Positions 2,716 through 27,164 of a stretch of 64,000 bases of DNA are shown here, one piece after another. The position numbers were made by a program, and so were the translations under genes. Under the pieces are notes generated by a model. It was not told the origin of the DNA and did not search any database. It saw only the letters and a list, made by a program, of their open reading frames with translations. The DNA comes from Niallia alba (GTDB lineage: Bacteria > Bacillota > Bacilli > Bacillales > Cytobacillaceae). The first letter of the stretch is position 1; each line of letters begins with the position of its first letter. The stretch covers positions 2,768,001 to 2,832,000 of the forward strand of contig NZ_JABBPK010000001.1 of NCBI RefSeq assembly GCF_012933555.1. The letters run 5' to 3'.

Positions 2716-3091
2716 GAGGCTGGGACATAAGTATTCCAGCCAAGGATAATTCCGAACAATTATACGAAGATGCTAATGAATGTTCCGTATAATTGTTCGG
2801 GCTTTTATTTGTTTTTCAAAGGATGTTTCCATGAAGTTTGGTGCGATTCCCCGCAGCCGGAATACACTTCGCTTTCCATGGGGCTCGCGCTGAGCCGCTT
2901 CGGCCTGTGGCCTGCAGGGTCTCAGACTGTCTCGCTAATCCCATAGGAGTCTTCGTGTATTCCGGCTGCTCTGTTTTTCCAACTAATTATATTTCCTCTT
3001 GTAAAAAGTATGCGAAAGCAGCCGCTATTTACTAGCTATATTAGAAATTGTTCGTCTTTACAGAGTATCTATTTAGTTATGTCCCATCCTC
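2716..3091 (+). repeat. Family B repeat, copy B1 (376 bp, MITE-like)
   Basis: The element starts GAGGCTGGGACATAA and ends TTATGTCCCATCCTC, a near-perfect 15-bp terminal inverted repeat; the A-rich flanks (AAATAAAAA / TTTTTATTT) extend the symmetry. Inside are a long stem (CCGAACAATTATACG with CGTATAATTGTTCGG) and a GC-rich core bounded by GCAGCCGGAATACAC and GTGTATTCCGGCTGC. The reverse complement of this 376-bp sequence occurs without visible change at 26789-27164. A 65-codon reading frame inside is judged spurious. It fills the gap between two converging genes. Confidence 0.9.
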
Positions 3092-3117
3092 TTTTTATTT
3101 ATCTAAACAAACTACTT

Positions 3118-4062
3118 TTAAATATAGGAAACAATTAACTCTGCTTTCCCATTTAATTCAAATGCACCAAATTTATTTGGCAGCAAGAAATGATCTCCTT
3201 TTTGGAAAGCAAATTCTTTCCCATCCTTTTCTAGAGAGCCGTCTCCCTCAATTACGCTACATAATAAGAAAGATTGCTCTTGCTCTCTATTTGCTTTTCC
3301 ATCTAATGCCCATTTTTCAACTGTAAAATAATCGCATTCAACAAAGTTGGTAATTTCCAAATCTCCTTTTTGCTCAACGGTTGGAGAAGTTGCTGCTAAT
3401 TGGTGTGGGACTGTTGTTACATTAATTGATTGCTCAATATGTAATTCCCTTTTATTACCTTCACTATCTGTACGATCATAATCATAGACACGATAAGTTG
3501 TATCTGAGTTTTGCTGTGTTTCAAGTATGATAATACCTTCTCCAATAGCATGAATTGTTCCACTAGGTACAAAGAAGAAATCGCCTTTCTTTACTGGTAC
3601 CTTGTTTAATAGCTCATCCCATCTGTTTTCAGCTATCATCGCTTTTAATTCTTCTTTTGTGTTTGCATGATGGCCAAAGATGATTTCTGCCCCATCCTGA
3701 CAATCAATAATATACCAACATTCTGTTTTCCCAAGCTCCCCATTTTCATGAACTTTTGCATAATCATCATTCGGATGGACTTGTACAGATAAGTCTTGAT
3801 TTGCATCTAATATTTTTGTTAATAATGGAAAACGATCACCATCTATATTTCCAAAAAGCTCACGATGATTTTCCCATAATTCTTCTAAATTTTTACCTGC
3901 TAGCGGTCCGTTCTTAACCATACTTTGTCCGTGCGGATGTGCGGAAAACGCCCAGCATTCCCCTGTTATTTCACTCGGTATATCATAACCAAAGCTACGG
4001 AGCGCAGTACCTCCCCAAATTCTTTCTTTAAATACTGGTTTAAAAAATAATGGCTCGTTCAT
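3118..4062 (-). CDS. manA: Mannose-6-phosphate isomerase, class I
   Basis: A 314-residue type I phosphomannose isomerase, which interconverts mannose 6-phosphate and fructose 6-phosphate in the cytoplasm. The zinc-binding QVHPND motif is present near residue 95, ECWYI near 115, and the PSGTIHAIGEG region near 170 carries the second metal histidine. Length is that of the short Bacillus enzymes (about 315). The ATG at 4062 lies 12 bases after AAGGAG. The gene is convergent with the PHP phosphatase and divergent from the subtilase gene. No mannose transport gene is adjacent, so it may serve polysaccharide precursors or mannose use; context does not decide. Confidence 0.93.
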   Translation of the reverse strand: MNEPLFFKPVFKERIWGGTALRSFGYDIPSEITGECWAFSAHPHGQSMVKNGPLAGKNLEELWENHRELFGNIDGDRFPLLTKILDANQDLSVQVHPNDDYAKVHENGELGKTECWYIIDCQDGAEIIFGHHANTKEELKAMIAENRWDELLNKVPVKKGDFFFVPSGTIHAIGEGIIILETQQNSDTTYRVYDYDRTDSEGNKRELHIEQSINVTTVPHQLAATSPTVEQKGDLEITNFVECDYFTVEKWALDGKANREQEQSFLLCSVIEGDGSLEKDGKEFAFQKGDHFLLPNKFGAFELNGKAELIVSYI

Positions 4063-4296
4063 TTGATAATGGAACTCCTTCTTTACAATATTTACAAAAC
4101 TATTCTAACATATTCCGTAATAAAACGGTTTCGATTTTCAAAAATAGAAAATAAAAGCAAAAAATTAGTGGGAATTTTCCTAGTAGATTACAAAAAAAGA
4201 TATACATTTTTTGCTAAAAATACAAAAAATAAGAGGACAAAATGATAGAAAGGTGATTTAATAGATTTGTAATATATCACCTATAGGGGGAAATTT

Positions 4297-7200
4297 ATGA
4301 AAAAGTGTAATTGGAAATCTTTTTTTGCTTTATTACTAATTGTTTCATTAGTTTTTAACATCCTACCGATGAAAGAAGCAAAAGCGATGGAAAACATCAC
4401 CCATGCTGAAACTCTTTCCATTGGAAAAGAAATAACATCATCTTTTCAAGCAGATGAAAATGTAAAATGGTTTATGATTGATCCTGCATCAGTCGTAAAA
4501 AACGCAACTCATTTAGAGATTAAATTAAATTCTACGGAAGAAATGAATATTTCTGTCTATTCTAGTAAAGAAAATGCGCAATTAGGTAATACTTTTAGCC
4601 AATATAACACAGTTAGCTTTATTGACTATGCAGGCGTAATCTATTTTCCAATTGCATGGGATGGACCATATTATATTAGAGTAGACTATTATTCCAACTT
4701 AGAGGATGAGGAATACATAGACGAGGATGAGTTCCCTGAAACAAATGGAGATTTTTCCTTAATAGTAAAGGATACAAAGTTGGCACCTACCGTTGAAGTG
4801 GAAGAAGCATGTCCAGTCGAATTAAGCATGCTGGATACAAAAGATAATCGAACATTGCTTACACAATTACGAACCATTCGAGATACCATTTTATCATCTA
4901 CAGAAAATGGGACAAATCTTTCTAGCTTATATTATCAAGTCTCTCCTTTTCTGACAGCAAAAATGATATTTAATAAAACATTGCGACAAGAAGTATTAAC
5001 AAATTTAACAGCATTAAAACCAATTTTCACTAACTTGCTAGAAAATGGGACAACTAGCAATTACAAGATAAGCAAAAACGAAGCAAAGGCAATAAATAAT
5101 TTATATGCTATTGCTAACGAAGCATCACCTGCTGCTTTACAAACAAAAATGGAAAAAATAGCTAAAAAAATAGATTTGTCGAAATTAGAAGGCAAAACCA
5201 TTGCCGATATTTTTAAGACATTAGGGGCTTCTAGTTCCACTATTAGCAACAAAGAAATGAATAATAAATTTATCGTCAAAATGAAAGCAGGAAGAACTGT
5301 TTCTTCCTTAAAAAACAGTCTAGGTAAAGCAACCGCACAAACGATTAATGGTTTAGAAGGCACAGAACAAATTGCAGACGGCATGTTTACAATTGAATTA
5401 GATCAAGGTAAATATACGGCCAAAAGTGCTAATACTCTCATTAACAAAATGGAGCAAGCCAAAGAAGTCGAGTATATAGAGCCAGTGCAACAATATTCAT
5501 TATTGGCTTTGCCAAGTGATGTGTCTGCCCCTTATCAATGGTCATTAAAAAATACAGCACAAACAAATGGGAAAAAAGGGGCTGATATACAATTCGAAAA
5601 ACTATATCAGCTTCAGCAATCTTCTAACATGAAACAAACGACAATCGCTGTATTAGATACTGGTGTCGATGCTTCTTTAGCTGACTTTAAAAATAAAATT
5701 ACTGCTGGCTATAATTTTATCAATGAATCAACGAATGTATATGATGACAATAATCATGGAACCCATGTAAGTGGTATTATCGCTGCTGGCATAAATAATG
5801 CTTTTTCCATGTCTGGCATCCATTCCAATGCAAAAATAATGCCGGTTAAAATATTAGACGCCTCAGGTTCGGGGGATACAGAACAAATTGCTAAAGGAAT
5901 TAAATATGCAGTAGATCATGGCGCAAAAGTAATTAATATGAGTTTAGGCGGTGGGTATAGCAGAGTGCTTGAATCGATGCTTCAATACGCCTATAGCAAA
6001 AACGTCACTATCATTGCCGCTAGTGGAAATGGAGGCTATGAAGGTCTTGATTATCCAGGTTCTTCTCAATATGTTACGGCAGTTGGTGCCTCAAATGATT
6101 TAGACATCGTTGCCGATTATTCAAGCTATGGAAAAGAGCTGGATCTTGTAGCACCAGGTTCTAATATTCCAAGTCTTGTTCCTAATGGTAATTTAGTGCT
6201 TTACAGTGGTACTTCTATGGCTACCCCACACGTTGCTGCTGTGGCTGGATTACTGCTCTCTTTAAACGGAAACCTAAAACCGAAAGAAGTAGAAAAATAT
6301 TTAACAGATACAGCTACATCCATTATCTTTAAAGAAAATGACAATCCTGAAAACGAGTATATGGAAGAATTTCCTGAGGACTTTCCTGTAGATAGCTATC
6401 CAGTAGGCTTTGATAAAGTATCTGGTTGGGGCAGATTAAATGCCTATTCTGCTTTTAGTGCCTTGCAATTAAAAGCTAAGGTTGCACCGATTTATAATAG
6501 TACTCGATTACTTACAGGTACAGCTGAACAAGGAAGTGTAATAAGTGTAAAACTGGGCAGTAAAACTTATTCGGCTACAACTGATAAAAACGGGAAATTT
6601 GCAGCAGAAATACCGCTGACTCAAACAAACCAACTTCTTTATATCCATTTTTCAAGTAAAGATGGGAAGGCTAGTACATCCATTCGAACAACGGTTCAAA
6701 ATGACACAAAAGCACCAAGCGCTCCTACCGTTCAAAAACTTGGCGATAATGATGTAGTGCTGAAAGGAACGAGTGAGGCTTTTGCTAGTATTTCCGCAAC
6801 TGTAAATGGAAATGCGATTGGTAATGGAAATGCAGACTTAAACGGAAAATTTGCTATAAAAATCAAAAAGCAAAAACGAAACACAGTTGTTTCCGTAACA
6901 GCTACAGATGGAGCGAAAAATAAAAGTAAAGCAACAACAATTAAAGTGATTGATAACACGCCTCCTTCTGTACCATCTGTAAATGGAACGATTAGTAATA
7001 AGTCTGATAAAATTTCCGGTAAAGCAGAGACTGGTTCTACCGTTACAGCTAAAGTCGGAAAAACTACGCTCGGTTCTGCTATTGCTGATAAGAATGGAAA
7101 GTATACGATTAAAATCAAAAAGCAAAAAGCGAACACCAAGATCAGCCTAACTGCTACAGATAAAGCAAAAAATGCAAGCAAACAAAAAACAATTACGGTT

Positions 7201-7464
7201 GCTGATAAAATAGCTCCTGCTGCTCCAAGTGTAAACAATGTTACTACTAAAACAACAAAGATTACAGGCAAAGCTGAAGCAAATGCAACGATAACCATTA
7301 AAATTAAAAATAAAGTTTTGGCAGAAGGAAAAGCAGATAACAAAGGGGTATTTTCCATTAAAATAAAGAAACAAAAGGAAAAAACCTCCCTGAATATAAC
7401 AGCAAAAGATAAAGCTGGGAATGTCAGCAAAACCGTTACTAAGATTGTCAAAAAGGCTAAATAA
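4297..7464 (+). CDS. Secreted subtilisin-like serine protease (S8) with C-terminal Ig-like repeats
   Basis: A 1055-residue exported protease. Residues 1-30 form a signal peptide (KKCNWKSFFALLLIVSLVF, AKA cleavage region). Residues about 35-150 look like a PPC-type beta domain, about 320-395 like an I9 propeptide (KFIVKMKAGRT, VEYIEPVQQY). The catalytic triad is Asp454 (AVLDTGVD), His487 (HGTHVSG) and Ser640 (SGTSMATPHVA). From about residue 730 there are four Ig-like repeats of about 80 residues; the last three share the strand motif IKIKKQK, making the C-terminus very basic. There is no LPXTG or S-layer domain, so wall retention by charge is an inference. Start: ATG at 4297 after AGGGGGA. 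A terminator hairpin follows. Confidence 0.92.
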   Translation: MKKCNWKSFFALLLIVSLVFNILPMKEAKAMENITHAETLSIGKEITSSFQADENVKWFMIDPASVVKNATHLEIKLNSTEEMNISVYSSKENAQLGNTFSQYNTVSFIDYAGVIYFPIAWDGPYYIRVDYYSNLEDEEYIDEDEFPETNGDFSLIVKDTKLAPTVEVEEACPVELSMLDTKDNRTLLTQLRTIRDTILSSTENGTNLSSLYYQVSPFLTAKMIFNKTLRQEVLTNLTALKPIFTNLLENGTTSNYKISKNEAKAINNLYAIANEASPAALQTKMEKIAKKIDLSKLEGKTIADIFKTLGASSSTISNKEMNNKFIVKMKAGRTVSSLKNSLGKATAQTINGLEGTEQIADGMFTIELDQGKYTAKSANTLINKMEQAKEVEYIEPVQQYSLLALPSDVSAPYQWSLKNTAQTNGKKGADIQFEKLYQLQQSSNMKQTTIAVLDTGVDASLADFKNKITAGYNFINESTNVYDDNNHGTHVSGIIAAGINNAFSMSGIHSNAKIMPVKILDASGSGDTEQIAKGIKYAVDHGAKVINMSLGGGYSRVLESMLQYAYSKNVTIIAASGNGGYEGLDYPGSSQYVTAVGASNDLDIVADYSSYGKELDLVAPGSNIPSLVPNGNLVLYSGTSMATPHVAAVAGLLLSLNGNLKPKEVEKYLTDTATSIIFKENDNPENEYMEEFPEDFPVDSYPVGFDKVSGWGRLNAYSAFSALQLKAKVAPIYNSTRLLTGTAEQGSVISVKLGSKTYSATTDKNGKFAAEIPLTQTNQLLYIHFSSKDGKASTSIRTTVQNDTKAPSAPTVQKLGDNDVVLKGTSEAFASISATVNGNAIGNGNADLNGKFAIKIKKQKRNTVVSVTATDGAKNKSKATTIKVIDNTPPSVPSVNGTISNKSDKISGKAETGSTVTAKVGKTTLGSAIADKNGKYTIKIKKQKANTKISLTATDKAKNASKQKTITVADKIAPAAPSVNNVTTKTTKITGKAEANATITIKIKNKVLAEGKADNKGVFSIKIKKQKEKTSLNITAKDKAGNVSKTVTKIVKKAK

Positions 7465-7473
7465 AAATATCAA

Positions 7474-7530
7474 AAGAAGGCTCTCTTTTCGAGAAACATT
7501 ACCGTTTCGAAAAAAGAGAGCCTTCTTAAT
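7474..7530. terminator. Bidirectional terminator between converging genes
   Basis: A strong stem (AAGAAGGCTCTCTTTT paired with AAAAGAGAGCCTTCTT) with a 20-odd base loop separates the rightward protease gene from the leftward MFS gene. A-rich and T-rich ends allow use from either side. Confidence 0.85.
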
Positions 7531-8754
7531 TTATGCACCTGTATTATATTTTTCTTTCTTGGTTACGATTGTTTCTTTTCCAATCATTTTCCCGTGTAAA
7601 TAGTAATAAAAAACAATACCAATCAAAATATAAATGCTACTTAAAGAATAAAAAGTATTTAAGCCGATTGCGTCGCCAATAATTCCGACAATATATGAAC
7701 CAAAGCCAATCCCGATATCAAAAATTGATAAGAATGTTGCTGTTGCAAGTCCCCGTCTCTGTGGAGCTGCTTTTTGGATGGCGATTGTTTGTAGACATGG
7801 GAACATAGAGCCATATCCTAAGCCAATTAATGCTGCAGAAAGTAAAAACATCCATTCTGATTGAGCCATTCCAAGGACAATCATTCCAATAGCAAATAAT
7901 ACGATGCATGGATAAACGATTTTATTTGCTCCATATCGATCAAACCATTTTCCTGCAAAAGGTCTTGCCATAAGCATAAAAATTGCATAAACTACAAAGA
8001 AATAACCGGATACACTAACAAGCCCTATATTTTCTGCATAGACAGAAACAAAGGAAAGAATGGACGAATAAACGATTCCAAACATCGCAGCAACGATACT
8101 AATTTTCACCGCTGTATTTTCCATGATTTGCTCGAATTTAAATCCCTTCTTACTATTATTTTCTTTCTCGACCGTTTCCGTTTCTACCACTGGCTCAAAT
8201 TTCATGAACCCACCTGTTAAAATAGCTAAAAATGCAAAAATAAGCGCTAATGTAAATAGTGTTGTATTTCCCCATGAGTTAATAGCTTGCAATCCAATAA
8301 AAGGACCAACAACCATTGCTAAGTTCATACTCATGGAATAATACCCCATGCCCTCTCCTCTTCTGGAACTCGGCAAAATGTCTGCAACAATGGTTCCAGT
8401 TGCAGTGGTAGCCATCCCAAATCCAATCCCGTGCAAGGCACGAACCACAAGTAAACCTTCAATAGAATCAGTAAATAAATAAAAAATTGCGGCAAGTAAG
8501 AAAATAAGTAAGGATGTTATAAATATGGCCTTCTTTCCAAACTTTTGCATTAAATTACCTGCTATTGGTCGAATGATTATCGCAGTAATTATGAAGACCG
8601 TAACGATCAATCCTGCTGTTGACTGCTTTCCATTCAGTTCTCGAATCGCATAAATTGGTAATGATACTAATAAAAAATAAAACGTCATAAATAAAAAAAA
8701 GTTACTTATCCATATTTGGATAAACCCCTTTGTCCATAATGGTTCTTTATTCAA
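7531..8754 (-). CDS. MFS drug-efflux-type transporter
   Basis: A 407-residue major facilitator with twelve predicted membrane segments. The motif FMQKFGKKAIFI after segment 2 matches the MFS loop motif A, and the repeat GKWFDRYGANKIV is found in the second half. RALHGIGFGMATTATGTI fits drug/H+ antiporters of the 12-TMS type. The best start is the TTG at 8754: AAGGAGG lies 7 bases upstream, and the TTG overlaps the TGA of the marR gene by 4 bases (TTGA), showing translational coupling. An upstream start at 8820 would lie within marR. Co-transcription with a MarR regulator suggests inducible efflux; the substrate is unknown. Confidence 0.86.
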   Translation of the reverse strand: MNKEPLWTKGFIQIWISNFFLFMTFYFLLVSLPIYAIRELNGKQSTAGLIVTVFIITAIIIRPIAGNLMQKFGKKAIFITSLLIFLLAAIFYLFTDSIEGLLVVRALHGIGFGMATTATGTIVADILPSSRRGEGMGYYSMSMNLAMVVGPFIGLQAINSWGNTTLFTLALIFAFLAILTGGFMKFEPVVETETVEKENNSKKGFKFEQIMENTAVKISIVAAMFGIVYSSILSFVSVYAENIGLVSVSGYFFVVYAIFMLMARPFAGKWFDRYGANKIVYPCIVLFAIGMIVLGMAQSEWMFLLSAALIGLGYGSMFPCLQTIAIQKAAPQRRGLATATFLSIFDIGIGFGSYIVGIIGDAIGLNTFYSLSSIYILIGIVFYYYLHGKMIGKETIVTKKEKYNTGA

Positions 8755-9185
8755 TTTTTTTCCTCCTTGCTTGCTAATGATTGAGACCACTGCGAAATAG
8801 TTTGTTGCAAATATACCCAAGAATCAACTGGCAATTGTGCAAGCAATTCTTGGTTTGCCTGTAAAACAGCGACTTCCCATTCTTCGTACTTTTGTAATGC
8901 TACGTCCGTCAAAAACACTTTGTTCGTGCGTTTGTCTTCTCCCTTTACTTGAAGCACATATTTTTTCTCAACCAGCTTTTTCACCGTACGTGTTACAGGT
9001 GGTGCTTCTATGGATAAATATTCAGCAATTTCCTTTTGAGTAAGCGGACCGTTCTTTTTTAATACAAACAAAATTGCCCATTCCGAACTATAAATATCAA
9101 AGGGCTCTAATGCTGTATTTAAGTGTTTTGTAAATTGCCTTGCAAGCTGCTGGATAGAATGGAATAATTCATGAGTCGTGTTCAT
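8751..9185 (-). CDS. MarR-family transcriptional regulator
   Basis: A 144-residue winged-helix protein. The DNA-binding part reads GPLTQKEIAEYLSIEAPPVTRTVKKLVEKKYV followed by the wing KGEDKRTNKVFLT, typical of MarR, with long helices at both ends for dimerisation. It is the first gene of an operon with the MFS transporter, overlapping its start by 4 bases. A 12-bp perfect palindrome in the promoter (9209-9220) is the expected autoregulatory operator. By analogy it represses the operon until a small toxic ligand binds; the ligand is unknown. Confidence 0.88.
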   Translation of the reverse strand: MNTTHELFHSIQQLARQFTKHLNTALEPFDIYSSEWAILFVLKKNGPLTQKEIAEYLSIEAPPVTRTVKKLVEKKYVLQVKGEDKRTNKVFLTDVALQKYEEWEVAVLQANQELLAQLPVDSWVYLQQTISQWSQSLASKEEKN

Positions 9186-9208
9186 CTCTTTCTCCGATCT
9201 AAAATTAA

Positions 9209-9249
9209 TTACCTAGGTAACTATATCATATTTTAAGGACTGATAGCAA
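9209..9249 (-). promoter_or_regulatory. marR-MFS promoter with palindromic operator
   Basis: Reading leftward, a -35 TTGCTA (9244-9249) and -10 TATAGT (9220-9225) are 18 bp apart. The perfect palindrome TTACCTAGGTAA at 9209-9220 abuts the -10 and covers the likely start site. This is the usual position for MarR self-repression. Binding is inferred. Confidence 0.6.
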
Positions 9250-9307
9250 TATATTACTAAAGGATTGTGTTTTTTCAATAGGAAAAAGAATTAGTAGGAA
9301 AAATGGA

Positions 9308-9424
9308 GCAGCCGGAATACACGAAGACGTCACGGGGATTAGCGCGACAGTCTGAGACCCCGGTGAGGAGACTCAAGCTTCGCCCCACGGAAAGCGAAGT
9401 GTATAACTTTACGAAAACAGCCTT
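9308..9424 (-). repeat. Family C repeat (core palindrome, degraded)
   Basis: It begins GCAGCCGGAATACACGAAG and contains GACAGTCTGAGACC and GCGAAGTGTA, the conserved core shared with family B, in reverse orientation. The far arm is damaged (GTGTATAAC instead of GTGTATTCCGG). It ends with CGAAAACAGCCTT, the outer end also seen in the copies at 15090 and 23917. Confidence 0.75.
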
Positions 9425-9431
9425 ATTTAAA

Positions 9432-9471
9432 AACAGCCTTATTAATCAATCGTTTGATTAATAAGGCTGTT
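9432..9471. repeat. Long perfect hairpin
   Basis: AACAGCCTTATTAATCAA pairs exactly with TTGATTAATAAGGCTGTT around a CG..T loop. The inner sequence AACAGCCTTATT repeats the edge of the neighbouring family C repeat. There is no clear T-run on either side, so terminator function is doubtful. Confidence 0.7.
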
Positions 9472-9506
9472 AGTTCTTTATGGAATTATTTTTGATTTCT
9501 ATGTCT

Positions 9507-9667
9507 ATATAAAGTGAAACTTCCATCAGAGGGGGTTTTCCTTCCTCCCCACTGATGGTTAGTTGAACCAATCGGACCTTTACGGACAGTTGATCTCCCG
9601 CCTATCTTCCTCGTATTCTCATAAGCTTGAGGAGGGAATCTTATTGTCCGTTAAGAGTGGGATAAAA
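9507..9667 (+). repeat. Family A repeat, copy A2
   Basis: A nearly complete copy from ATATAAAGTGAAACTTCC to AAGAGTGGGATAAA. Hairpin 1 has a weakened arm (CCATCAGAGGGGG against CCCCACTGATGG); hairpin 2 (TTTACGGACAG / TTGTCCGTTAA) is kept. It lies 42 bp past the stop of the MOSC gene. Confidence 0.87.
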
Positions 9668-9709
9668 AACTGCAGACGTAAGTCCACAGTCCCTTCTTAA
9701 TCCTTCTGA

Positions 9710-10423
9710 TTAGATAGAAATTACATCGCCAGCATAGATAGTTCCGGTTTGAATGACACTCGCATAGAGACCAAAATGATTATTTTGGTCTTTCACAAGT
9801 TGTTTCAATAACTTTGGTTGCCTTGTGCCTGTTTCGGGATCGACCGTAATAATCATACATCTTTCACAATACTTGTTGATTTCAAGAATTACTTCTGTAC
9901 CAATTTTTATTTGTTTTCCTATCAAGTCTTCTTCCTTCATACTATTTTGTAAATCATATAAGATATTCCCTCTAAATCTCCTTTCATCAATTACTTCACC
10001 ATACGAAGAAGATAATTCGGATAGTGCCTGTGTAGAGATTAACAAAATATTGTCTTCTTCAATTGCCGGGAACGGAACATAGTTTGGAGAATAGGTGATT
10101 GTTTCCAACGTTCGATTTGTTTCTTTTTCCAGCCTTTCTAATAAAGCTGAATCATCCCAATTGTATTCCGAACCATCGCTTGCACTAATTTTCATTTTAG
10201 GAAAAGCTTCTAAACAATCATCCCCTATAAACGCTGCTTTGTATGTAACCATTTTAGGATATTGAGTAATCGTTAAATGCTTGTCCTTACTCGACTTATC
10301 GATAAAAGCATGACTTCTATCCCCATATATACCATAAGACATGATTCGTGCTTTCGAAATACTTTCTCCGGTAAAAGATTTTACAGGATAACGCATCATT
10401 TTATGTACCTTTCCAACAATCAT
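9710..10423 (-). CDS. MOSC domain protein (MOSC N-terminal beta-barrel plus MOSC)
   Basis: A 237-residue cytoplasmic protein. The N-terminus (VHKMMRYPVKSFTGESIS, YGIYGDRSHAFID) is the beta-barrel domain that precedes MOSC; the later RFRGNILYDL, IGTEVILEINKYCERCMIITVDPETG carries the conserved MOSC cysteines (CERC) near residue 185. MOSC proteins handle sulfur or molybdenum-cofactor-linked reductions (mARC/YcbX-like), so a role in reducing N-hydroxylated compounds is possible but unproven. The ATG at 10423 follows GGTGGGGGAG; a longer start at 10480 would run through the terminator of the gene before it. It is a separate paralogue from the interrupted MOSC gene near 58-60 kb. Confidence 0.82.
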   Translation of the reverse strand: MIVGKVHKMMRYPVKSFTGESISKARIMSYGIYGDRSHAFIDKSSKDKHLTITQYPKMVTYKAAFIGDDCLEAFPKMKISASDGSEYNWDDSALLERLEKETNRTLETITYSPNYVPFPAIEEDNILLISTQALSELSSSYGEVIDERRFRGNILYDLQNSMKEEDLIGKQIKIGTEVILEINKYCERCMIITVDPETGTRQPKLLKQLVKDQNNHFGLYASVIQTGTIYAGDVISI

Positions 10424-10462
10424 AACTCTCCCCCACCTTTCTCTTTCTTCCATTAAAACAAA

Positions 10463-10497
10463 AAAACTCCCTAAAACCAATTCTTTTAGAGAGTTCT
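10463..10497 (-). terminator. Terminator of the DUF3889 gene
   Basis: Reading leftward, AACTCTCTAAAA pairs with TTTTAGGGAGTT (one mismatch) and is followed by a run of T. It lies 8 bp beyond the stop of the secreted DUF3889 gene and separates it from the MOSC gene. Confidence 0.8.
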
Positions 10498-10504
10498 TTG
10501 GATA

Positions 10505-10834
10505 TTAAGGTTGGGTTTCTTTCATTTCAACTGATAATAAACGTTCTGTTCGCGTATCAAAAGTTAAGTTGACAAATACACCTATTTCTTTTTGATCCTG
10601 CTTTACAATAAGCTTAAACTTTTCCACTGAAGTTCCTTTTTTATCTTCCTTACCAACATGCAGATAATCGGTAACCTCACTATTAGGGTATTTTTCTTGA
10701 GCCTTTGTCATGGCAATTCTGCCCCATTTAACATAAGAAGGTAATGCTTCTGCTTCTGTTTGTAGAGGAAGTAACTGCATAAGAAATACACTCAGCAATA
10801 AGATGCCTATGAATGGAAACTTTATTTTTTTCAT
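10505..10834 (-). CDS. Small secreted DUF3889 family protein
   Basis: A 109-residue protein with an N-terminal signal peptide (KKIKFPFIGILLLSVFLMQLL, cleavage near AEA). The mature part PSYVKWGRIAMTKAQEKYPNSEVTDYLHVGKE and the following beta strands ending TFDTRTERLLSVEM match the DUF3889 family (YqzG/YdhC-like) of small exported Bacillus proteins. Function is unknown. I chose the ATG at 10834 because AAAGGAG sits 8 bases upstream; the ATGs at 10855 and 10852 lie before that site. A terminator follows directly, so the gene is monocistronic. Confidence 0.75.
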   Translation of the reverse strand: MKKIKFPFIGILLLSVFLMQLLPLQTEAEALPSYVKWGRIAMTKAQEKYPNSEVTDYLHVGKEDKKGTSVEKFKLIVKQDQKEIGVFVNLTFDTRTERLLSVEMKETQP

Positions 10835-10950: not shown

Positions 10951-10985
10951 AAATAAAGTAAATATTATAAAAGGGAGTGACAAGC

Positions 10986-19149: not shown

Positions 19150-19170
19150 TTGGAAATACTCTTTTAAACC

Positions 19171-19208
19171 AAAGGATCGGTCTCAAGTTAAGAGACCGAT
19201 CCTTTTTA
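19171..19208. terminator. Bidirectional terminator
   Basis: AAAGGATCGGTCTC pairs perfectly with GAGACCGATCCTTT around a 7-base loop, followed by T on the right and preceded by TTTAAACC on the left. It lies between converging genes and just overlaps the stop of the leftward one. Confidence 0.85.
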
Positions 19209-19643
19209 AACTTCTGTACTTTCTTCACTAGCATCCTGTTTATTTAGATGCTGTAAAACTTTTTTATCAAAATATTCTTCGTTCATTTTGTAGGAGATTT
19301 CAAAAGCTGGCGTGGTTGCGAACTCTTTTTTAATCCAGTAGTAATTATCTTCTTTCGTTGGCTCTGTTAAATCAAGCATTATAGTAATTTCAAGAGAAAT
19401 AAGATTTTTATTCTTCGTAATATTAACAGTTGGATTCGTACTTCGAGCTACTTTGTTCATTAGCTTTTTATTAAATAGCATGGAAAAGTGCAGCTCGTTA
19501 CCGCTTTTATTTTTCTTATTCAGTTTCAGTAAATAGGAATCACCTAGATCTACTAATTTTTCTTTATCCATATTTTCGATTGCTAATATTAACCGTATGT
19601 ACGTATTTTCCACTGGTGCAATGTTTATTTTTGTTGAGCTCAT
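19206..19643 (-). CDS. Uncharacterised protein, 145 residues
   Basis: I do not recognise this gene. The product (starting MSSTKINIAPVENTYIRLIL) is soluble, of mixed charge and predicted alternating beta strands and helices, ending in an acidic tail (DASEESTEV). There is no signal peptide. The ATG at 19643 has GAGGAGG at a good spacing; the frame stays open for 16 more codons upstream but without a site. It ends on a terminator shared with the HAD gene. Real coding is likely because of the ribosome binding site, length and codon pattern. Confidence 0.62.
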   Translation of the reverse strand: MSSTKINIAPVENTYIRLILAIENMDKEKLVDLGDSYLLKLNKKNKSGNELHFSMLFNKKLMNKVARSTNPTVNITKNKNLISLEITIMLDLTEPTKEDNYYWIKKEFATTPAFEISYKMNEEYFDKKVLQHLNKQDASEESTEV

Positions 19644-19753
19644 TTGTAACCTCCTCTTACTTGAAACCGTAAAATTGACCCTTTTTATCATATGACAACA
19701 TCTCGTTTATTATAACGAAAAAAACTGTCCAAAAATAGCTGCTTTCGCATAAT

Positions 19754-19907
19754 TTTATCCCACTCTTAACGAACAGTAAGACTCCCGCCTCAAGTTTATG
19801 AGTACACGAGGAAGATAACTGGGAGATCAACTGTCCGGTCCGATTGGTTCACCTAACCATCATGGGGGAGGAAGGAAACTCCCCCATGATGGAAGTTTCA
19901 CTTTATA
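19754..19907 (-). repeat. Family A repeat, copy A3 (covarying stem)
   Basis: A full copy in reverse orientation from TTTATCCCACTC to GTTTCACTTTAT. Hairpin 1 reads CCATCATGGGGGA paired with TCCCCCATGATGG, so both arms changed from the usual CAGTG/CACTG form while staying complementary. Just left of it is a stray GCTGCTTTCGCATA, a family B fragment. Confidence 0.88.
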
Positions 19908-20131
19908 ATGGCAATATAACTTCTTTTCGATATCTATCTCTTCGCAGCCTTAATCTCCTACTTTGTATATTCTTATCTTTCTAACGTCATAATGCAAATA
20001 AAATGCTTGTCTTTCATATAAAAATAAAAAAGGAAGCATTTTTGCAGGAAATAAGTGTGTGCAATGTGTATAATAAATAATAATAACTTATTAATAGTTA
20101 AAAGGAATATTTTAAAATGAGGAGTTTAAAA

Positions 20132-20449
20132 ATGAAAGAAATTAAAACAGTAGATGTATTTGAAGAAATTATTAATAATGGAGAAATAAATATTGTAAAG
20201 TTTTTTACGACTTGGTGTCCAGATTGTACAAGAATGGATATGTTCATTGACGATATCGTTGAAGCAAATAATGACAAAACATGGTATACCCTAAATAAAG
20301 ATGAACTGCCAGAAATAGCTGAAAAATACGATGTAATGGGAATACCAAGCCTACTAATTTTTAAAAACGGCGAAAAAATCGGTCATTTACATAGTGCTAA
20401 TGCAAAAACACCTGAACAAGTTGAAGAATTTTTAGCAGCATATAAATAA
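20132..20449 (+). CDS. Thioredoxin-like protein
   Basis: A 105-residue single-domain thioredoxin fold. The active site is W-C-P-D-C (Cys29 and Cys32) in IVKFFTTWCPDCTRMD, and the conserved cis-proline occurs in VMGIPSLLIFKNGEKIG. Proteins of this size in Bacillaceae (YtpP/YdbP-like) are auxiliary thiol-disulfide oxidoreductases; the WCPDC variant differs from the WCGPC of the main thioredoxin. The ATG at 20132 is preceded by GAGGAG; the ATG at 20117 overlaps that site and is not the start. It is monocistronic and cytoplasmic. Confidence 0.86.
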   Translation: MKEIKTVDVFEEIINNGEINIVKFFTTWCPDCTRMDMFIDDIVEANNDKTWYTLNKDELPEIAEKYDVMGIPSLLIFKNGEKIGHLHSANAKTPEQVEEFLAAYK

Positions 20450-20535
20450 TTTAATCACATACACATCAGCTCCAAAGTACTTACAGCTAGACACAAATTT
20501 GCTTTAAAACTTATATTTTTTTAAAGGTCAAAAAA

Positions 20536-20701
20536 GAAGCTGGGACATAAGTATTTTCAACCAAATAACCCCAAACGATTATACGTACATGCTAAGAAAA
20601 GTTCGTATAATCCGTTTGGGGTATTATTCATTTTAAGAAAGAAGGTTTGTGGTGATCACCCGCAGCCTGAATACACTTATATTTTGTTTTGTCCCAGTCT
20701 G
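20536..20701 (+). repeat. Family B repeat, copy B4 (internally deleted)
   Basis: Both ends survive (GAAGCTGGGACATAAG and GTTTTGTCCCAGTCTG) but the GC-rich core is mostly lost, leaving 166 bp. The upstream stem is kept with different bases: CCCCAAACG-ATTATACG paired with CGTATAAT-CCGTTTGGGG. It fills the space after the thioredoxin gene and after the ppc stop. Confidence 0.82.
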
Positions 20702-20727
20702 TTTATATTGCCTTCTCTATTTCTAAA

Positions 20728-23490
20728 TCAACCTGTATTACGTAAACCGGCAGCAATACCATTAATTGTTAAAAGAACTTGGTTCAATAATTCCTTATCT
20801 GGAATTTCCTGTTCACGAAGCTGTTTAATTAACTCTACTTGGAAGAAATTCAATGGATCTACATATGGATTTCTTCTATAAACTGATTCTTGAATAGAAG
20901 GAGTGTGATCAAGTAATTCTTCAATTCCTGTTATTTCTAGCAAGATCGTTTTTGTTTTATTATATTCTTCTTTAATAATTTGATAAATACGATTCCCAAT
21001 TGCTTCATCCTCAACAAGAGAAGAATATTCTCTAGCAGTTGTTAAATCTGCCTTCATTAAAGCCATCTGTAAATTATCGATTGTTGAGCGGAAGAATGGC
21101 CACTTCGCATACATTTGCTTTAGAATTTCAAGATTGCCTGGCTTTTGTTGGGCGAATTCAGAAAGTCCTGTACCAGACGCATACCAAGCTGGAAGTAGTT
21201 GTCTGCTTTGCGTCCAAGCAAATACCCATGGAATTGCACGTAAATTGTCAAACGTTGTTTTATTTTTTCTACTCATTGGTCTCGAACCAATTTTTAAATT
21301 ACCTATTTCATTTAAAGGTGTTGCTTCTTTAAAATAAGTCATAAAATCAGGATCATTAAATACTAACGATTGATATTTAGCAAGAGAAATAGCAGAAATT
21401 TCTTCCATGCAATCTTCCCAAAGACTTCTTTCCTCTTTATGCTCGCTAATATCCTTTGATATATGGGCAATTGCCATAAGCAAAGTGGAAGTTGCTTGCT
21501 CTAAGCTTCTAAAAGCGATATCTTCCAATAAATAACGCGAAGATAATACTTCCCCTTGTTCCGTGATTTTTACCCCATCTCCTAATGTTTCAGCTGGTTG
21601 AGAAAGGATACTTTTATTTAATGGACCGCCACCACGACCAAGCGAACCACCACGACCATGGAAAAACTTTAAGCCGATTTGATAGTTACTTGCCATTTCA
21701 TGAATTTCACGCTGTGCTTTGTATAATTTCCAATTCGCTGTTAAGGTACCGCCATCTTTACTACCATCAGAATATCCTAACATAATTTCCTGTTGATCAT
21801 TATGCTGTCTTAAGTGCTCTCGATAAACGGGCATACGGAATAATGTTTCAATAATTTCAGGTCCAGCAACTAAGTCATCAATCGTTTCTAACAATGGTGC
21901 AACATTTAAACGACTCTCAACCGTGCCATCTGCATGTAAGCGATAAATTCCAGCTTCTTTTGCTAATACAAGCACTTCTAGAATATCACTTGGTGAACGA
22001 GTCATACTTACTAAGTATACATTAATAGCACGTTCTCCAAATTTCTTATGCGCCTCTCTTATCATGGAAAATGTACTAATCATTTCCTGTGTTTCATCTG
22101 AATAATCCTCATTTAATAAAAGAATCGGACGTGGATCATTTAAGACAGTTTCAAGTATGCGCAACTTTTCGTTTTCCGGTAAGTTTTTATAATCATCTGT
22201 TATGCCAACTTTACGTAAAATCTCATCAATAGCAGCTTCATGCTCCCCACTATGATTTCGAATATCCAATGTTGCTAAATGGAATCCAAACAGTTGAACC
22301 TGACGAATCATTTTTTGTAAATCCTTTTGCTGATGTGCTTTAGGTTGATGCAACGCAAAACTTTCTTGGATTAAAAATAAATCATCTAATAGCTCTTGTA
22401 CTTTCACATAGCCTTTATCAGACTTCCCATATTCCCTTAATCTTTCCAAAATTACTGAAAACTTTCTGCGATAAACTTCTTTTTCAACCGGCCATTTTTT
22501 TTCAGGAGTCAAATATAACTGTTCTTCCTCTATAATGGATTGAATTAGCTTTGAGCTAACTTTTACACGATTGGTAGAATGGCTAAATTTCTTCATTAAT
22601 TCGTCAACTGCATCCATGTATTTCTGAATTACCAATTCATTTTGTTTATGAAGTGTTTGCCATGTAACATCCGGAGTTACATTCGGATTACCATCTCGGT
22701 CTCCCCCGATCCAAGAACCAAACCATAGGAAATTAGGTACTTTCCACTCAAAGTTAGGATAGTTTTCGAGGAGCGCATCCTGAACTTCTTGATGAATTTC
22801 TGGCAAAACATCAAACAAAGTCTGATCGAAATAATAAAGCCCATTTCTTACTTCATCCATTACAGTAGGACGTTCTTGACGAAGCTCATCTGTTTGCCAC
22901 ATAATCGTGATTTCTTCAAAAAGATCTTCGTCTAACTGTTGTCGCTCTTTTTTCGTTAACATTGGATTATCAAGCTGTTTCATGATAGTAGCAATTCTTT
23001 TTTGAATCTCTAAAATTGTACGTTTTGTTGATTCTGTTGGATGTGCAGTAATGATTAGTTCTAGCGAAAGAGTATTTAACACCTCTTGAATCGTTTCTTC
23101 CGATAAATCCTTTTGTTTAAATGCCATTATTGCACGATCAATTGAATACGGCTGTACGCCTTTTTCTTGACTCAATTGATATTCTCTTCTTCGACGAATG
23201 CGATGATTTAATTCAGCAACATTCACTAAATGGAAATATTTCGAAAACGCACGAATTACTTGTCGGCGAACAGGTTTATCTAATTTTTCCATTTCAAGCT
23301 TTAATTGGTTATATGTATGTTCATTATTTGTTTCGCGCAGTTCTTTTGCTAACTTACGAATTACCTCTACCTTTTCTAATAATTCTTGGCCACCATGGTG
23401 GATAAGCACTTCACCAAGAATATTACCAAGGTGTTTGACATCTTTCCGTAAAGGTAAACTGCTCTCATTTCCTTTTATCGTTGTTGTCAT
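20728..23490 (-). CDS. ppc: Phosphoenolpyruvate carboxylase
   Basis: A 920-residue cytoplasmic enzyme that adds bicarbonate to PEP to give oxaloacetate, refilling the TCA cycle. Key parts are visible: the catalytic histidine in ITAHPTES (His150), the arginine/glycine-rich active-site loop FHGRGGSLGRGGGP near residue 595, and the C-terminal TINGIAAGLRNTG with the conserved RNTG end. Length is near that of bacterial PEPC (about 880-930). It is monocistronic, with a 426-bp A+T-rich upstream region before a family C repeat and the IS110 element. B. subtilis uses pyruvate carboxylase only, so a ppc gene is a useful marker of the lineage. Confidence 0.96.
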   Translation of the reverse strand: MTTTIKGNESSLPLRKDVKHLGNILGEVLIHHGGQELLEKVEVIRKLAKELRETNNEHTYNQLKLEMEKLDKPVRRQVIRAFSKYFHLVNVAELNHRIRRRREYQLSQEKGVQPYSIDRAIMAFKQKDLSEETIQEVLNTLSLELIITAHPTESTKRTILEIQKRIATIMKQLDNPMLTKKERQQLDEDLFEEITIMWQTDELRQERPTVMDEVRNGLYYFDQTLFDVLPEIHQEVQDALLENYPNFEWKVPNFLWFGSWIGGDRDGNPNVTPDVTWQTLHKQNELVIQKYMDAVDELMKKFSHSTNRVKVSSKLIQSIIEEEQLYLTPEKKWPVEKEVYRRKFSVILERLREYGKSDKGYVKVQELLDDLFLIQESFALHQPKAHQQKDLQKMIRQVQLFGFHLATLDIRNHSGEHEAAIDEILRKVGITDDYKNLPENEKLRILETVLNDPRPILLLNEDYSDETQEMISTFSMIREAHKKFGERAINVYLVSMTRSPSDILEVLVLAKEAGIYRLHADGTVESRLNVAPLLETIDDLVAGPEIIETLFRMPVYREHLRQHNDQQEIMLGYSDGSKDGGTLTANWKLYKAQREIHEMASNYQIGLKFFHGRGGSLGRGGGPLNKSILSQPAETLGDGVKITEQGEVLSSRYLLEDIAFRSLEQATSTLLMAIAHISKDISEHKEERSLWEDCMEEISAISLAKYQSLVFNDPDFMTYFKEATPLNEIGNLKIGSRPMSRKNKTTFDNLRAIPWVFAWTQSRQLLPAWYASGTGLSEFAQQKPGNLEILKQMYAKWPFFRSTIDNLQMALMKADLTTAREYSSLVEDEAIGNRIYQIIKEEYNKTKTILLEITGIEELLDHTPSIQESVYRRNPYVDPLNFFQVELIKQLREQEIPDKELLNQVLLTINGIAAGLRNTG

Positions 23491-23916
23491 TAGATTACCA
23501 TCCCTTAATCTAAATTTTTTTACATAAATACTTTATTACCATTAATCCTATCACTAATCTTTTAAAAATTCATTAACAAAAATCAATAATTAATAGATAG
23601 AAAAGATAGATTTCGAATAATTTATCTAATATTTATATCAATTATTCATCAATAACAAAAAACAGAGTATTTTCAATCTATTTTTGAGTATTTATGGAAA
23701 TAAATAGGCTATTCATTATATTTACTTGAATCTCATAATTTTGGTTACATAATGTATATAACCTAAATATTTAAATGTGTAAACCTTTTTGCGTAAAGTT
23801 ATTTAAATTTGACGGATTTTATTTAGTACAGGTTCCATTTAGTAGAAAACATTAGCATATAATAACCAGGATGGAAATATCGTTTTTGAGAAATTAATTT
23901 TTAGGAAGTGTAAAAA
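23491..23916. other. A+T-rich intergenic region upstream of ppc
   Basis: It holds the ppc promoter presumably, but I could not single out convincing -35/-10 boxes among many A+T-rich candidates. No gene, riboswitch or repeat was recognised here. Confidence 0.4.
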
Positions 23917-24129
23917 AAGGCTGTTTTCGTAAATTTTGTTGCTATGACCCGCAGCCTGAATACACTCCGCTTTCCGTGGGGCTCGCGCTGAGCCGCGGTC
24001 TGCCTTTGGCCTGCAGGGTCTCAGGCTGTCTCGCTAATCCCACAGGAGTCTACGTGTATTCAGGCTGCTCAGATTTACTCATTAATTGATTTTTTCTATT
24101 GAGAAAGCAACAATCTTTTAGAAAAACTC
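23917..24129 (+). repeat. Family C repeat, copy C3 (covarying core)
   Basis: It starts AAGGCTGTTTTCGTAAATTT and ends CAACAATCTTTTAGAAAAAC; the two ends are similar when one is reverse-complemented (TTTTC.TAAA..TTGTTGCT). The core palindrome reads GCAGCCTGAATACAC paired with GTGTATTCAGGCTGC, a paired change from the usual CCGG form. The IS110 element begins immediately to its right. Confidence 0.82.
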
Positions 24130-24405
24130 TCATGGCGGCGTTACCCGCCGCCACCGTCTATCATGAAAACTTGCTCCTATCCCATGATAGAAAGTCTAAA
24201 CCACTTAACACCTGACCATAATTAATAGTACAATACGACCAGTCCGAAGACTGTTTGGTGGATCAATACAAGTTGATACCCCGTTAGAAAAACTGGTTGT
24301 GACAGTTTAAAAGAACCGTCTAATGTGTTTATAAACACGAATACAAAAATTTTGTATGATGACTTCTGTCGCTTGTATTGTATTAAAAATCTTTGAGGTG
24401 ATTAT
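24130..24405 (+). ncRNA. Candidate bridge RNA region of the IS110 element
   Basis: Non-coding stretch directly upstream of the transposase. It holds hairpins GGCGGCG/CGCCGCC (24134-24152), TCTATCATG/CATGATAGA (24157-24191), CCAGTC-like and GACAGTT/AACCGTC stems nearer the gene. Position and length match the bridge RNA that guides IS110-subgroup recombinases. The guide loops could not be matched to flanks by eye. Confidence 0.5.
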
Positions 24406-25635
24406 ATGGAAGCTATGATTGAACGGTGTGCAGGCCTAGATGTACACCAAGAAACAGTAGTTGCTTGTGTTTTATTTGGTTCATTAGATAAAAAACCAAA
24501 TAAAGAGATTCAAACCTTTCCAACAACCACAAGTGGCCTTTTGGCACTTAGCGACTGGCTATCCTCACACAAAATAACGGATGCTGTAATGGAAAGTACC
24601 GGTGTATATTGGAAGCCCGTTTGGAATGTTATAGAATGTGACTTCCAATTAATCCTCGCCAATGCCCAACATGTTAAAAATGTTCCCGGAAGGAAAACAG
24701 ACGTAAAAGATGCGGAGTGGTTAGCTAAACTTTTGCGTTCTGGACTAATTGAAAAAAATTTTGTACCGCCCAAAGAAATTCGTGATTTGCGAGATTTAAC
24801 CCGGTATCGTAAAAAACTCATCCATACACGAACTTCTGAGCGCAATCGAATCCACAAAATTCTACAGGATGCAAATATTAAACTAACTTCTGTTTTATCT
24901 GACATTTTTGGTGTCACTGGTTGTCGCATTATTGAAGCCCTAATAAACGGCGAAAAAATAGGTGTGTTTGAACTTCAACAAATGGTTGATTCAAGAGTTA
25001 AGGCGAGCACAACAGATATTGCAGAAGCCCTTAACGGTGGAATACGTAAACATCATATTGATATGTTACGTTTCCATTGGGACCATATCAATCACATCGA
25101 TGAAACAATCGAAAAAGTAGTTGAACGCATAGACCAAGCGCTTATTCCTTATCAAGAGGAGTGCGAACTACTAGATACCATACCGGGTGTGGATAAAAAT
25201 GCATCCGCAATCTTTATAGCTGAAATGGGTGTAGACATGTCAGTATTTAAAAGTTCTAAACATCTAGCCTCATGGGCTGGAGTGAGTCCAGGAAATTATG
25301 AGAGTGCCGGTAAAAAAAAAACAGGTAAAACTCAGTACGGAAACAAATCATTAAGAACCACCGCTGTTGAATGTTCCATGGCTACAGATAGACAGTATAA
25401 TCGCATATCTGCACATAGAAAAAGAATTATGAAACGACAAGGAAAATCGAAAGCACGGATCGCTTCCGCTCATTTAATCCTAACAATTGCTTACAATATT
25501 TTAAAAACAAGGCAACCATATCAGGAACTAGGCCCTGATTATGTTGATCTCGAACAAAGTAAAGAACAAAAAATGATTCAATACTTAAAAAGGAAAGGGT
25601 ATCGTATTGAACCCACTAATGAACAAATTGCTTAA
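24406..25635 (+). CDS. IS110-family transposase (DEDD recombinase)
   Basis: A 409-residue recombinase. The N-terminal RuvC-like domain has the DEDD set Asp12 (GLDVHQ), Glu63 (MESTG), Asp99 and Asp102 (KTDVKDAEW). A coiled region follows, then the C-terminal Tnp domain with LASWAGVSPGNYESAGKKK, whose Ser300 corresponds to the catalytic serine. The full length and unbroken frame suggest an active enzyme. It is preceded by GAGGTG and a long non-coding part that may encode the bridge RNA. Confidence 0.93.
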   Translation: MEAMIERCAGLDVHQETVVACVLFGSLDKKPNKEIQTFPTTTSGLLALSDWLSSHKITDAVMESTGVYWKPVWNVIECDFQLILANAQHVKNVPGRKTDVKDAEWLAKLLRSGLIEKNFVPPKEIRDLRDLTRYRKKLIHTRTSERNRIHKILQDANIKLTSVLSDIFGVTGCRIIEALINGEKIGVFELQQMVDSRVKASTTDIAEALNGGIRKHHIDMLRFHWDHINHIDETIEKVVERIDQALIPYQEECELLDTIPGVDKNASAIFIAEMGVDMSVFKSSKHLASWAGVSPGNYESAGKKKTGKTQYGNKSLRTTAVECSMATDRQYNRISAHRKRIMKRQGKSKARIASAHLILTIAYNILKTRQPYQELGPDYVDLEQSKEQKMIQYLKRKGYRIEPTNEQIA

Positions 25636-25746
25636 TGAATAACAAAAGCACTATATTTAATCATTCCTAGCCTTTTAAAAAAGTTCAAATTTAGAAGGTT
25701 CAGCTTAGTGTTGCCTTTTACCTAAAGAGTTTTCATACAAACAGCC

Positions 25747-25780
25747 AAAAAAAAGGAAGTGTCTCCACTTCCTTTTTTTA
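25747..25780. terminator. Bidirectional terminator
   Basis: AAAAAAAGGAAGTG pairs with CACTTCCTTTTTTT around a TCTC loop, right at the end of the HesB-like gene. Confidence 0.88.
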
Positions 25781-26077
25781 ATGATGATGATGTTCTTTTG
25801 ATGGATTATAAATTGTAAAACCTGGTTGTGGAACATGGAAATATTGAATCCATACACCATCCAAGAACTCTGCCTCTCTTGTATCCAATAAAATAGGAAT
25901 GTCCTTATCAGATTGAACAATTTCATCATGCTCAGTCTTTTGGTCCAATTTCAGATCATAATGAGCATGGTTTCCATGATTCTCAGTTATGTATACGCGA
26001 ATCATTTCTCCTTCTTCAGCCTTTTCTAGCATTTGATTGAGAACTTTTACCGCGTGTCTGTTTATTTTGACTTTCAT
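25778..26077 (-). CDS. HesB/IscA-like domain protein
   Basis: A 99-residue protein beginning MKVKINRHAVKVLNQMLEK and containing GEMIRVYITENHGNHAHYDLKL and FLDGVWIQYFHVPQPGFTIYNP, which is the HesB-like fold. The cysteines that bind Fe-S in IscA/SufA are absent, as in the YneR-type branch; instead there are many histidines, with four at the C-terminus. A role in iron-sulfur handling is therefore uncertain. The ATG at 26077 has AGGAGG upstream; a longer start at 26122 has none. It is monocistronic with its own terminator. Confidence 0.75.
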   Translation of the reverse strand: MKVKINRHAVKVLNQMLEKAEEGEMIRVYITENHGNHAHYDLKLDQKTEHDEIVQSDKDIPILLDTREAEFLDGVWIQYFHVPQPGFTIYNPSKEHHHH

Positions 26078-26252
26078 TCTAATAATCCTCCTAAGCAAAC
26101 ATTTGCCTTCTTCTAATACCACTCTATTGTAATCTCCTATTCCGGCGTTTGCAAATAATCAAGACTTTTTAGAGAAATTTCTTAGAATTACTACAAACGT
26201 AGCAGCCAAACATACCAACAGCTAACATTCATAATCTTAAGTACCCAAAATA

Positions 26253-26285
26253 AAAAGCAACCCAACAACAGATTGGAATTGCTAC
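26253..26285 (-). terminator. Terminator of the Fur-site gene
   Basis: Reading leftward, AGCAATTCCAA pairs with TTGGGTTGCT and is followed by TTTTATTTT, 17 bp past the stop of the 126-residue gene. Confidence 0.72.
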
Positions 26286-26301
26286 TTTACCATTTATAAC
26301 G

Positions 26302-26682
26302 CTAGATCACCGCAAGATCTTTTTGAATAGATTTTAAATCATTAAGTTCACTTGCAAATAAATCAAATTGCTCTTTATTCAAGCCATCTAAAGACTCATT
26401 TACTTTATATTCTAAATAATTCATTCTCAATTCCATGTCCAGTAAAGATGTAATCTTTTTACTGGAGATAAATTCTTCGATTTCATCCACAAACATGAAA
26501 AAACTATAATCCTTTATCATGACAAGTAAAAGCCAGCCAAGTGAATCAACGTACTTTCTTTCCTCAGTAACCGTAATGATATCACCTTTATGTAAATCTA
26601 GAATGAATGAATGTTCAGGTCTAGGACAGGTACATTCGATCATATATTGAAATGGAGCTAAAACAATGAAATCATTTTTCAT
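26302..26682 (-). CDS. Small protein under a Fur-type operator, possible IDEAL-like C-terminus
   Basis: A 126-residue soluble protein. The N-terminal half (FIVLAPFQYMIECTCPRPEH, DIITVTEERKYVDSLGWLLL) is beta-rich with two close cysteines (CTC); the C-terminal part, LLDMELRMNYLEYKVNESLD then LNKEQFDLFASELN, resembles the IDEAL domain of small Bacillus adaptor proteins such as YpiB. The promoter 50 bp upstream contains a near-consensus Fur box between its -35 and -10, so the gene should be induced on iron starvation. It ends on its own terminator. Function is unknown; no siderophore or heme gene is adjacent. Confidence 0.66.
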   Translation of the reverse strand: MKNDFIVLAPFQYMIECTCPRPEHSFILDLHKGDIITVTEERKYVDSLGWLLLVMIKDYSFFMFVDEIEEFISSKKITSLLDMELRMNYLEYKVNESLDGLNKEQFDLFASELNDLKSIQKDLAVI

Positions 26683-26723
26683 TATATCTTACACCTTCCT
26701 ATTCTTTTCGTTTATTTGTTATT

Positions 26724-26753
26724 ATTTTAAATGAAAATGATTATCACTGTCAA
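26724..26753 (-). promoter_or_regulatory. Fur-box promoter
   Basis: Reading leftward: TTGACA (26748-26753), 18 bases, TAAAAT (26724-26729). The spacer holds TGAAAATGATTATCA (26732-26746), which matches the 7-1-7 Fur box TGATAATNATTATCA at 13 of 14 defined positions. Repression by Fur with iron is the natural reading. Confidence 0.75.
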
Positions 26754-26788
26754 TTAATTTTTCCTTTATAATAAACTTTATAAAAATA

Positions 26789-27164
26789 GAGGATGGGACA
26801 TAACTAAATAGATACTCTGTAAAGACGAACAATTTCTAATATAGCTAGTAAATAGCGGCTGCTTTCGCATACTTTTTACAAGAGGAAATATAATTAGTTG
26901 GAAAAACAGAGCAGCCGGAATACACGAAGACTCCTATGGGATTAGCGAGACAGTCTGAGACCCTGCAGGCCACAGGCCGAAGCGGCTCAGCGCGAGCCCC
27001 ATGGAAAGCGAAGTGTATTCCGGCTGCGGGGAATCGCACCAAACTTCATGGAAACATCCTTTGAAAAACAAATAAAAGCCCGAACAATTATACGGAACAT
27101 TCATTAGCATCTTCGTATAATTGTTCGGAATTATCCTTGGCTGGAATACTTATGTCCCAGCCTC
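26789..27164 (-). repeat. Family B repeat, copy B2 (reverse, identical to B1)
   Basis: The same 376 bp as at 2716-3091 but reverse-complemented; I found no base difference when reading them side by side. The ends are GAGGATGGGACATAA and TTATGTCCCAGCCTC. It ends 13 bp before the stop of the leftward yitT-like gene and so forms that gene's 3' end. Confidence 0.9.

Follow-up and report, generated by a model that had tools for sequence, protein, structure and literature searches.

A gene-less 376-bp repeat with IS1182-type ends that probably replaces terminator hairpins in a Niallia alba genome

Two copies of a 376-bp repeat are present in the 64,000-nucleotide stretch of DNA analysed in this study (the window, C1:2768001-2832000 of the 5.24-Mb Niallia alba genome G000). 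This repeat is, with good confidence, a gene-less miniature inverted-repeat transposable element (MITE) with IS1182-family ends, which is probably moved in trans and appears to replace terminator hairpins past genes without target duplication. In the proposed mechanism an IS1182-type transposase would act in trans to mobilise the MITE, and its preferred target would be the intrinsic-terminator hairpin just beyond a gene. The stem-loop would be removed, the A-rich and T-rich arms would stay and no target duplication would be made. The terminator-like hairpin of the MITE and the retained T-rich arm may then restore termination, and little harm to the host is possible because the MITE brings this hairpin and keeps the T-rich arm at its end.

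Copy 1 (2716-3091, plus strand) is placed between a PHP-domain gene (1857-2672, plus strand) and manA (3118-4062, minus strand), and copy 2 (26789-27164, minus strand) lies 12 bp beyond the end of a YitT-like gene (27177-27803, minus strand). A previous sequence-only reading had described the two as reverse complements, and the exact alignment bears this out, the copies being letter-identical across 376 bp. The end sequences given there were recovered as well; the left terminal inverted repeat of copy 1 is GAGGCTGGGACATAA (2716-2730, plus strand) and the right one is GAGGATGGGACATAA (3077-3091, minus strand). Copy 1 is flanked on the plus strand by the A-rich left arm of the presumed target, AAATAAAAA (2707-2715), and by its T-rich right arm, TTTTTATTT (3092-3100), which is complementary to the left arm. 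An inverted-repeat listing also recovered the pair, as 394-nucleotide arms with 99% complementarity, since some of the flanking letters match as well. No open reading frame (ORF) of at least 100 amino acids was found inside either window copy. The element is thus short and gene-less, has terminal inverted repeats of the form GAGG(C/A)TGGGACATAA, occurs in at least 28 copies and has ends in common with an IS1182-family element of G000, and the earlier term MITE-like is appropriate for it.

Genome-wide counting in G000 gave at least 18 letter-identical copies including the window pair, at least 10 more at 99% identity or above, at least 12 further copies at 88-93% identity and three more that are interrupted by an IS110 insertion, about 40 copies in total. 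These counts are lower bounds, with 40 of 320 candidates scored and two partial matches not counted. The 31 nearly identical copies, three of them with IS110 inside, are best explained by a recent burst. Recent mobility, one of the two options offered in the sequence-only reading, is supported by the many identical copies, by the IS1182-family element with shared ends in the same genome and by the relatives G007, G008 and G012, whose DNA is collinear with the window but has neither copy at the matching sites. The other option, old fixed copies equalised by gene conversion, would fit the 18 letter-identical copies; however, the 12 copies at 88-93% persist beside them without having been equalised and both window copies are absent from the three collinear relatives, so that gene conversion is not needed as a cause of the identity and is very improbable. 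Just as far-fetched is the idea that recombination between the pair switches the orientation of the intervening 23.7 kb. Identical inverted copies of 376 bp could recombine, as is generally known, but the order and direction of this interval are equal in G007, G008 and G012, and its inversion as a present feature was rejected. Moreover, the window pair is not special, because 16 further letter-identical copies lie elsewhere.

Part of the evidence for a replacement of hairpins by the MITE comes from the same loci in relatives. Seven of the 28 loci were compared, namely the two window loci and five of the other 26 which were picked for long flanking genes (L013, L015 and L019 were not among them). 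The relatives used are without the MITE, and at each locus at least one of them has a terminator-like hairpin at the MITE position. Such a hairpin was detected by the scan in 21 of the 23 relative sequences, and 19 of these 21 beat all 100 letter shuffles. In the two sequences without a scan match (G007 at L010 and G008 at L009) a hairpin is visible by eye, its loop exceeding the limit of the scan. The sequences left out of the 23 are those of G001 and G004 (which carry an element), G005 and G011 at L010, of G012 and G002 at L028, and of G009 at L017 (which has an extra gene between); L190 is not among the sequences used, and the relatives at L021 were compared via the right flank only.

The exchange can be followed at single sites. 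At L017, G012 reads GAGAAAAA-GGTCTCATACATAAAAGACC-TTTTTC, whereas G000 has GAGAAAAA, the MITE and TTTTC, and the stem-loop is gone. At L006, ATAAAAAGGACAC..GTGCCCTTTTT in G008 corresponds to ATAAAA, the MITE and TTTT in G000. An A-run and a T-run enclose a stem-loop at the PHP-manA site of G006, whereas in G001 and G004 these runs enclose a related element; this terminator has thus been a target in another lineage too, as described for some TnSha1 targets (PMC4923244). The type of site occupied by the MITE appears to be the position of a terminator hairpin from which the hairpin is gone, a feature absent from the sequence-only reading. Separately, G012 and G007 carry at their PHP-manA site (L109 and L110) a different palindromic insert of about 90 nucleotides at the terminator position, bounded by AAAAAGAGTG and CACTCTTTTT as judged by eye.

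The landing sites within G000 agree with such a target. Eighteen of the 28 copies follow the 3' end of a called ORF (at least 100 amino acids) at a distance of no more than 60 bp, a location for which 18% of the intergenic positions of the window qualify. Beside 20 of the 28 no hairpin was found within 60 bp on either side, and the A-rich and T-rich arms are mostly left around the MITE. The flanks were tested at 31 sites, which comprise the 28 copies and the three IS110-bearing ones. The mean best run of complementarity between left and right flank was 4.34, as compared to 2.92 with swapped flanks (none of 2000 shuffles as high), and the mean number of flank matches in the first ten positions was 5.39 as compared to 4.56 (2 of 2000 shuffles as high). 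Direct repeats of three or more bases occur at only two of the 31 sites, L001 (13 bp) and L012 (AAAAA, 5 bp), and therefore the constant duplication usual for a DDE transposon is missing.

A transposase with matching ends, the presence of which had been proposed for checking, was found in G000 in an intact IS1182-family element (L034). The L034 transposase has 525 amino acids, is intact and scores 433 bits with the IS1182 model NF033551 (cut-off 270). Of three further transposase matches in this genome, one is 71% identical and has a single stop codon; the other two are remote (21-29% identity) and situated side by side. The ends of the L034 element are GAGGCTGGGACATAAC and GAGGCTGGGACAAAAC. 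Thirteen IS1182 loci were scanned, two from G000, nine from other genomes of the genus and two from named plasmids; both ends are within two mismatches of GAGGCTGGGACATAAC at eight of them, including both G000 loci. A Terribacillus locus showed 3 and 4 end mismatches and four loci gave no such ends. The shared ends argue strongly that an IS1182-type transposase acting in trans moves the MITE.

These results have to be weighed against the case of an ordinary MITE which inserts in AT-rich intergenic DNA, the hairpins of the relatives merely reflecting the terminators present at many gene ends. Terminators are common past genes, and a number of points weigh against the replacement of hairpins, the first two of which also speak for an ordinary MITE. 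Ten of the 28 copies fall outside the 60-bp zone behind a called gene end, and a hairpin is still present beside the MITE, clearly at three of the 28 sites (L001, L011 and L012) and weakly at five. Strong flank complementarity (at least 7 of 10) is seen at 10 of the 31 sites only, and L001 has a 13-bp direct repeat. At the 14 co-directional sites among the 28, the MITE is oriented like the genes in 6 cases and opposite to them in 8; this absence of an orientation preference is mildly against selection for a one-way terminator of the MITE. In the hairpin scan the stretches of the relatives were cut by eye around the site. The relatives are other species with DNA segments 75-87% identical, and the exact pre-insertion letters are therefore only approximate. 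Further, no DNA common to the MITE and L034 was found by comparison beyond the ends; as the likeness is confined to the ends, the driver is a strong candidate rather than a proven one, and its action and the cleavage steps are what we infer. The ordinary MITE, in turn, does not account for the missing constant duplication or for flanks that are complementary above swapped flanks. It also leaves unexplained the 20 sites without a hairpin within 60 bp, as nearby insertion should have spared it, and the exact stem-loop exchange at L017 and at the PHP-manA site. We consider it unlikely, and a MITE that replaces terminator hairpins is preferred.

The MITE also brings hairpins of its own. Compared with shuffled sequences, the 394-nucleotide stretch has a much stronger fold on either strand (z about -10). 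Inner hairpin 1 (copy 1, 2752-2800, plus strand; copy 2, 27080-27128, minus strand, with equal letters) is followed by the T-rich stretch GCTTTTATTTGTTTTT and is terminator-like, with compensatory changes across the family. In an alignment of 17 members of the family, taken from several genomes, 92.2% of the cells pair and 9 of the 19 pairs change on both sides. Its covariation score is 0.260, as compared to 0.135 in shuffles and at most 0.091 when slid; no shuffle of 500 was as high, a count which is not a probability because the 17 aligned sequences are related. A simple terminator scan of 2600-3200 (loops 3-8) reported none, since the loop of inner hairpin 1 is longer than that range. A conserved stem followed by a T-tract, as in an intrinsic terminator, is found in this hairpin, which may supply the replacement terminator, and terminator activity is predicted for it on this ground. 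The central hairpin (copy 1, 2853-2969, plus strand; copy 2, 26911-27027, minus strand, again with equal letters) holds a core common in the genus; this 85-nucleotide core recurs at 90% identity or more in several further genomes of the genus, and at lower identity outside the genus. At the Rfam gathering score no match to the MITE was obtained, the only matches in the window being three T-boxes elsewhere, and with weak matches only the MITE was rejected as a known RNA family. The best of these links the MITE core (L010 1641-1752, minus strand) to the Staphylococcus aureus small RNA family tsr24 (RF02577), with 21.7 bits where the cut-off is 50 (E 0.06). The T-box leaders are on the minus strand at 43121-43327, 57341-57576 and 57620-57866, two of them in tandem.

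The central hairpin is also the place of the IS110 insertions. Three MITE copies are 2134 bp long, with a 1758-bp insert after nucleotide 234 that consists of an IS110-family element and a repeated GGAG; the insertion point corresponds to 2949/2950 in copy 1. The nested transposase belongs to the IS110 family (NF033542, 221 bits, cut-off 140), and the element sits at the same MITE position in all three interrupted copies (L031, L032 and L033, at 435-2188). In G008, two different core hairpins each carry a 94%-identical IS110 element at the corresponding position (L132 and L141, at 1109-2866). Hence insertions of this IS110 clade share a single fixed position in the MITE core hairpin in both species. 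From the 18 new IS110 loci of other genomes 13 were compared (L139, L144, L145, L148 and L149 were left out), and two of them match the MITE whereas the other 11, with 24-54% protein identity, do not; this IS110 clade and not IS110 at large is therefore tied to the MITE core. The three IS110-MITEs of G000 may be separate insertions or may have arisen by movement of a MITE already carrying IS110. Comparison of the 383-nucleotide 3' non-coding end of IS110 with the target for a guide gave two 7-nucleotide matches, which is about chance by our own estimate. A more ambitious reading, which we put forward tentatively and do not favour, is that the MITE is a mobile terminator cassette. It would recognise terminators from the shape of their hairpins and put its own conserved terminator hairpin in place of the one it removes; termination would then go on and the MITE could multiply at low cost, with its core serving as the fixed landing site of RNA-guided IS110. 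The IS110-family transposase gene noticed earlier between the two window copies was confirmed at 24406-25635.

More distant relatives of the MITE exist in G000, since the end pattern, with one mismatch allowed, occurs 72+77 times in the genome as compared to 0+1 for the backward control, a count which like the 18 letter-identical copies is far above chance; a longer 566-bp kind (L036-L039) is among them. In the window, diverged members lie at 38926-39251 (both ends recognisable), 20532-20696 (shorter) and 47064-47231 (one end recognisable), a core hairpin without MITE ends at 23916-24098 and a core-hairpin fragment at 9270-9360, with no strand assigned to these five. The exact 38-nucleotide end in named genomes and the exact 26-nucleotide end in viral contigs gave no match, in collections from which records of G000 may be excluded. 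Depending on the assumed terminus, 21 or 22 of the 31 MITEs are oriented with the replichore (p 0.07 or 0.03), a slight bias on which no conclusion is based.

G000 also holds a second family of repeats, about 159 bp long, with at least 72 copies (a lower bound, 40 of 250 candidates being scored), many of them in head-to-tail arrays sharing 5 bp at the joints. Its window copies are at 1689-1856, 9509-9667, 19753-19933, 34839-35010, 40538-40668, 49173-49344 and 50657-50765, and the genome-wide loci are L193-L212. If the origin is at coordinate 1, 35 of its 37 clusters point with the replichore (p about 1e-8). Y1 transposases were rejected as its drivers, as no repeat copy lies beside the 10 Y1 loci (matches of at most 22 bases only), and no driver was found among these 10 loci. 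In two of the three IS110-bearing MITEs (L031 and L032) the left flank is an end of this second family, directly adjoining.

These observations suggest a way for a repeat to multiply while leaving genes intact, and a route by which repeats of this sort become landing places of RNA-guided IS110 elements. With about 40 copies in one chromosome, the family moreover offers a natural target collection for deriving the shape that would be recognised.

The staphylococcal elements IS1272 and TnSha1 are at least 1.8 kb in size. They share with the present MITE the IS1182-family ends, the hairpin target, which is often a terminator, the lack of duplication and repeated hits on the same terminator; they delete the stem-loop, as the MITE probably does. 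For IS1272, an insertion mode that replaces a stem-loop and leaves no duplication has been published (PMC5678879, Wan 2017). The same mode is described for TnSha1/IS1272, with RNA data confirming hairpins A-E as terminators and with some TnSha1 targets being the same terminator hit repeatedly (PMC4923244, Furi 2016). Unlike the 376-bp, gene-less, hairpin-carrying MITE with about 40 copies, both carry a transposase, and TnSha1 also fabI. MITEPye1 of Paracoccus yeei is likewise gene-less and mostly intergenic, with IS1182-like ends and long stem-loops, but it has 1-3 copies per chromosome and direct-repeat borders, and terminator replacement is not mentioned in the available portion of its report (PMC11578231). 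The MITEs of ISMac2 (IS1182 family) in Methanosarcina acetivorans are also gene-less, with 160 and 169 bp and 14 and 7 copies; however, one kind is listed with 4-bp direct repeats and the sections at hand do not describe the targets (PMC3852290). The Firmicutes stem-loop families Bcr1 and Bhal-1 are repeated, structured and intergenic with tens of copies, a likeness in description, whereas no IS1182 link is mentioned in the excerpted account (PMC2267715). A literature search with few subscription journals covered gave no gene-less family that replaces terminators genome-wide and carries its own hairpins. Terminator replacement is already known from a staphylococcal insertion sequence and its composite transposon, and a gene-less family of about 40 copies that seems to do so appears to be new.

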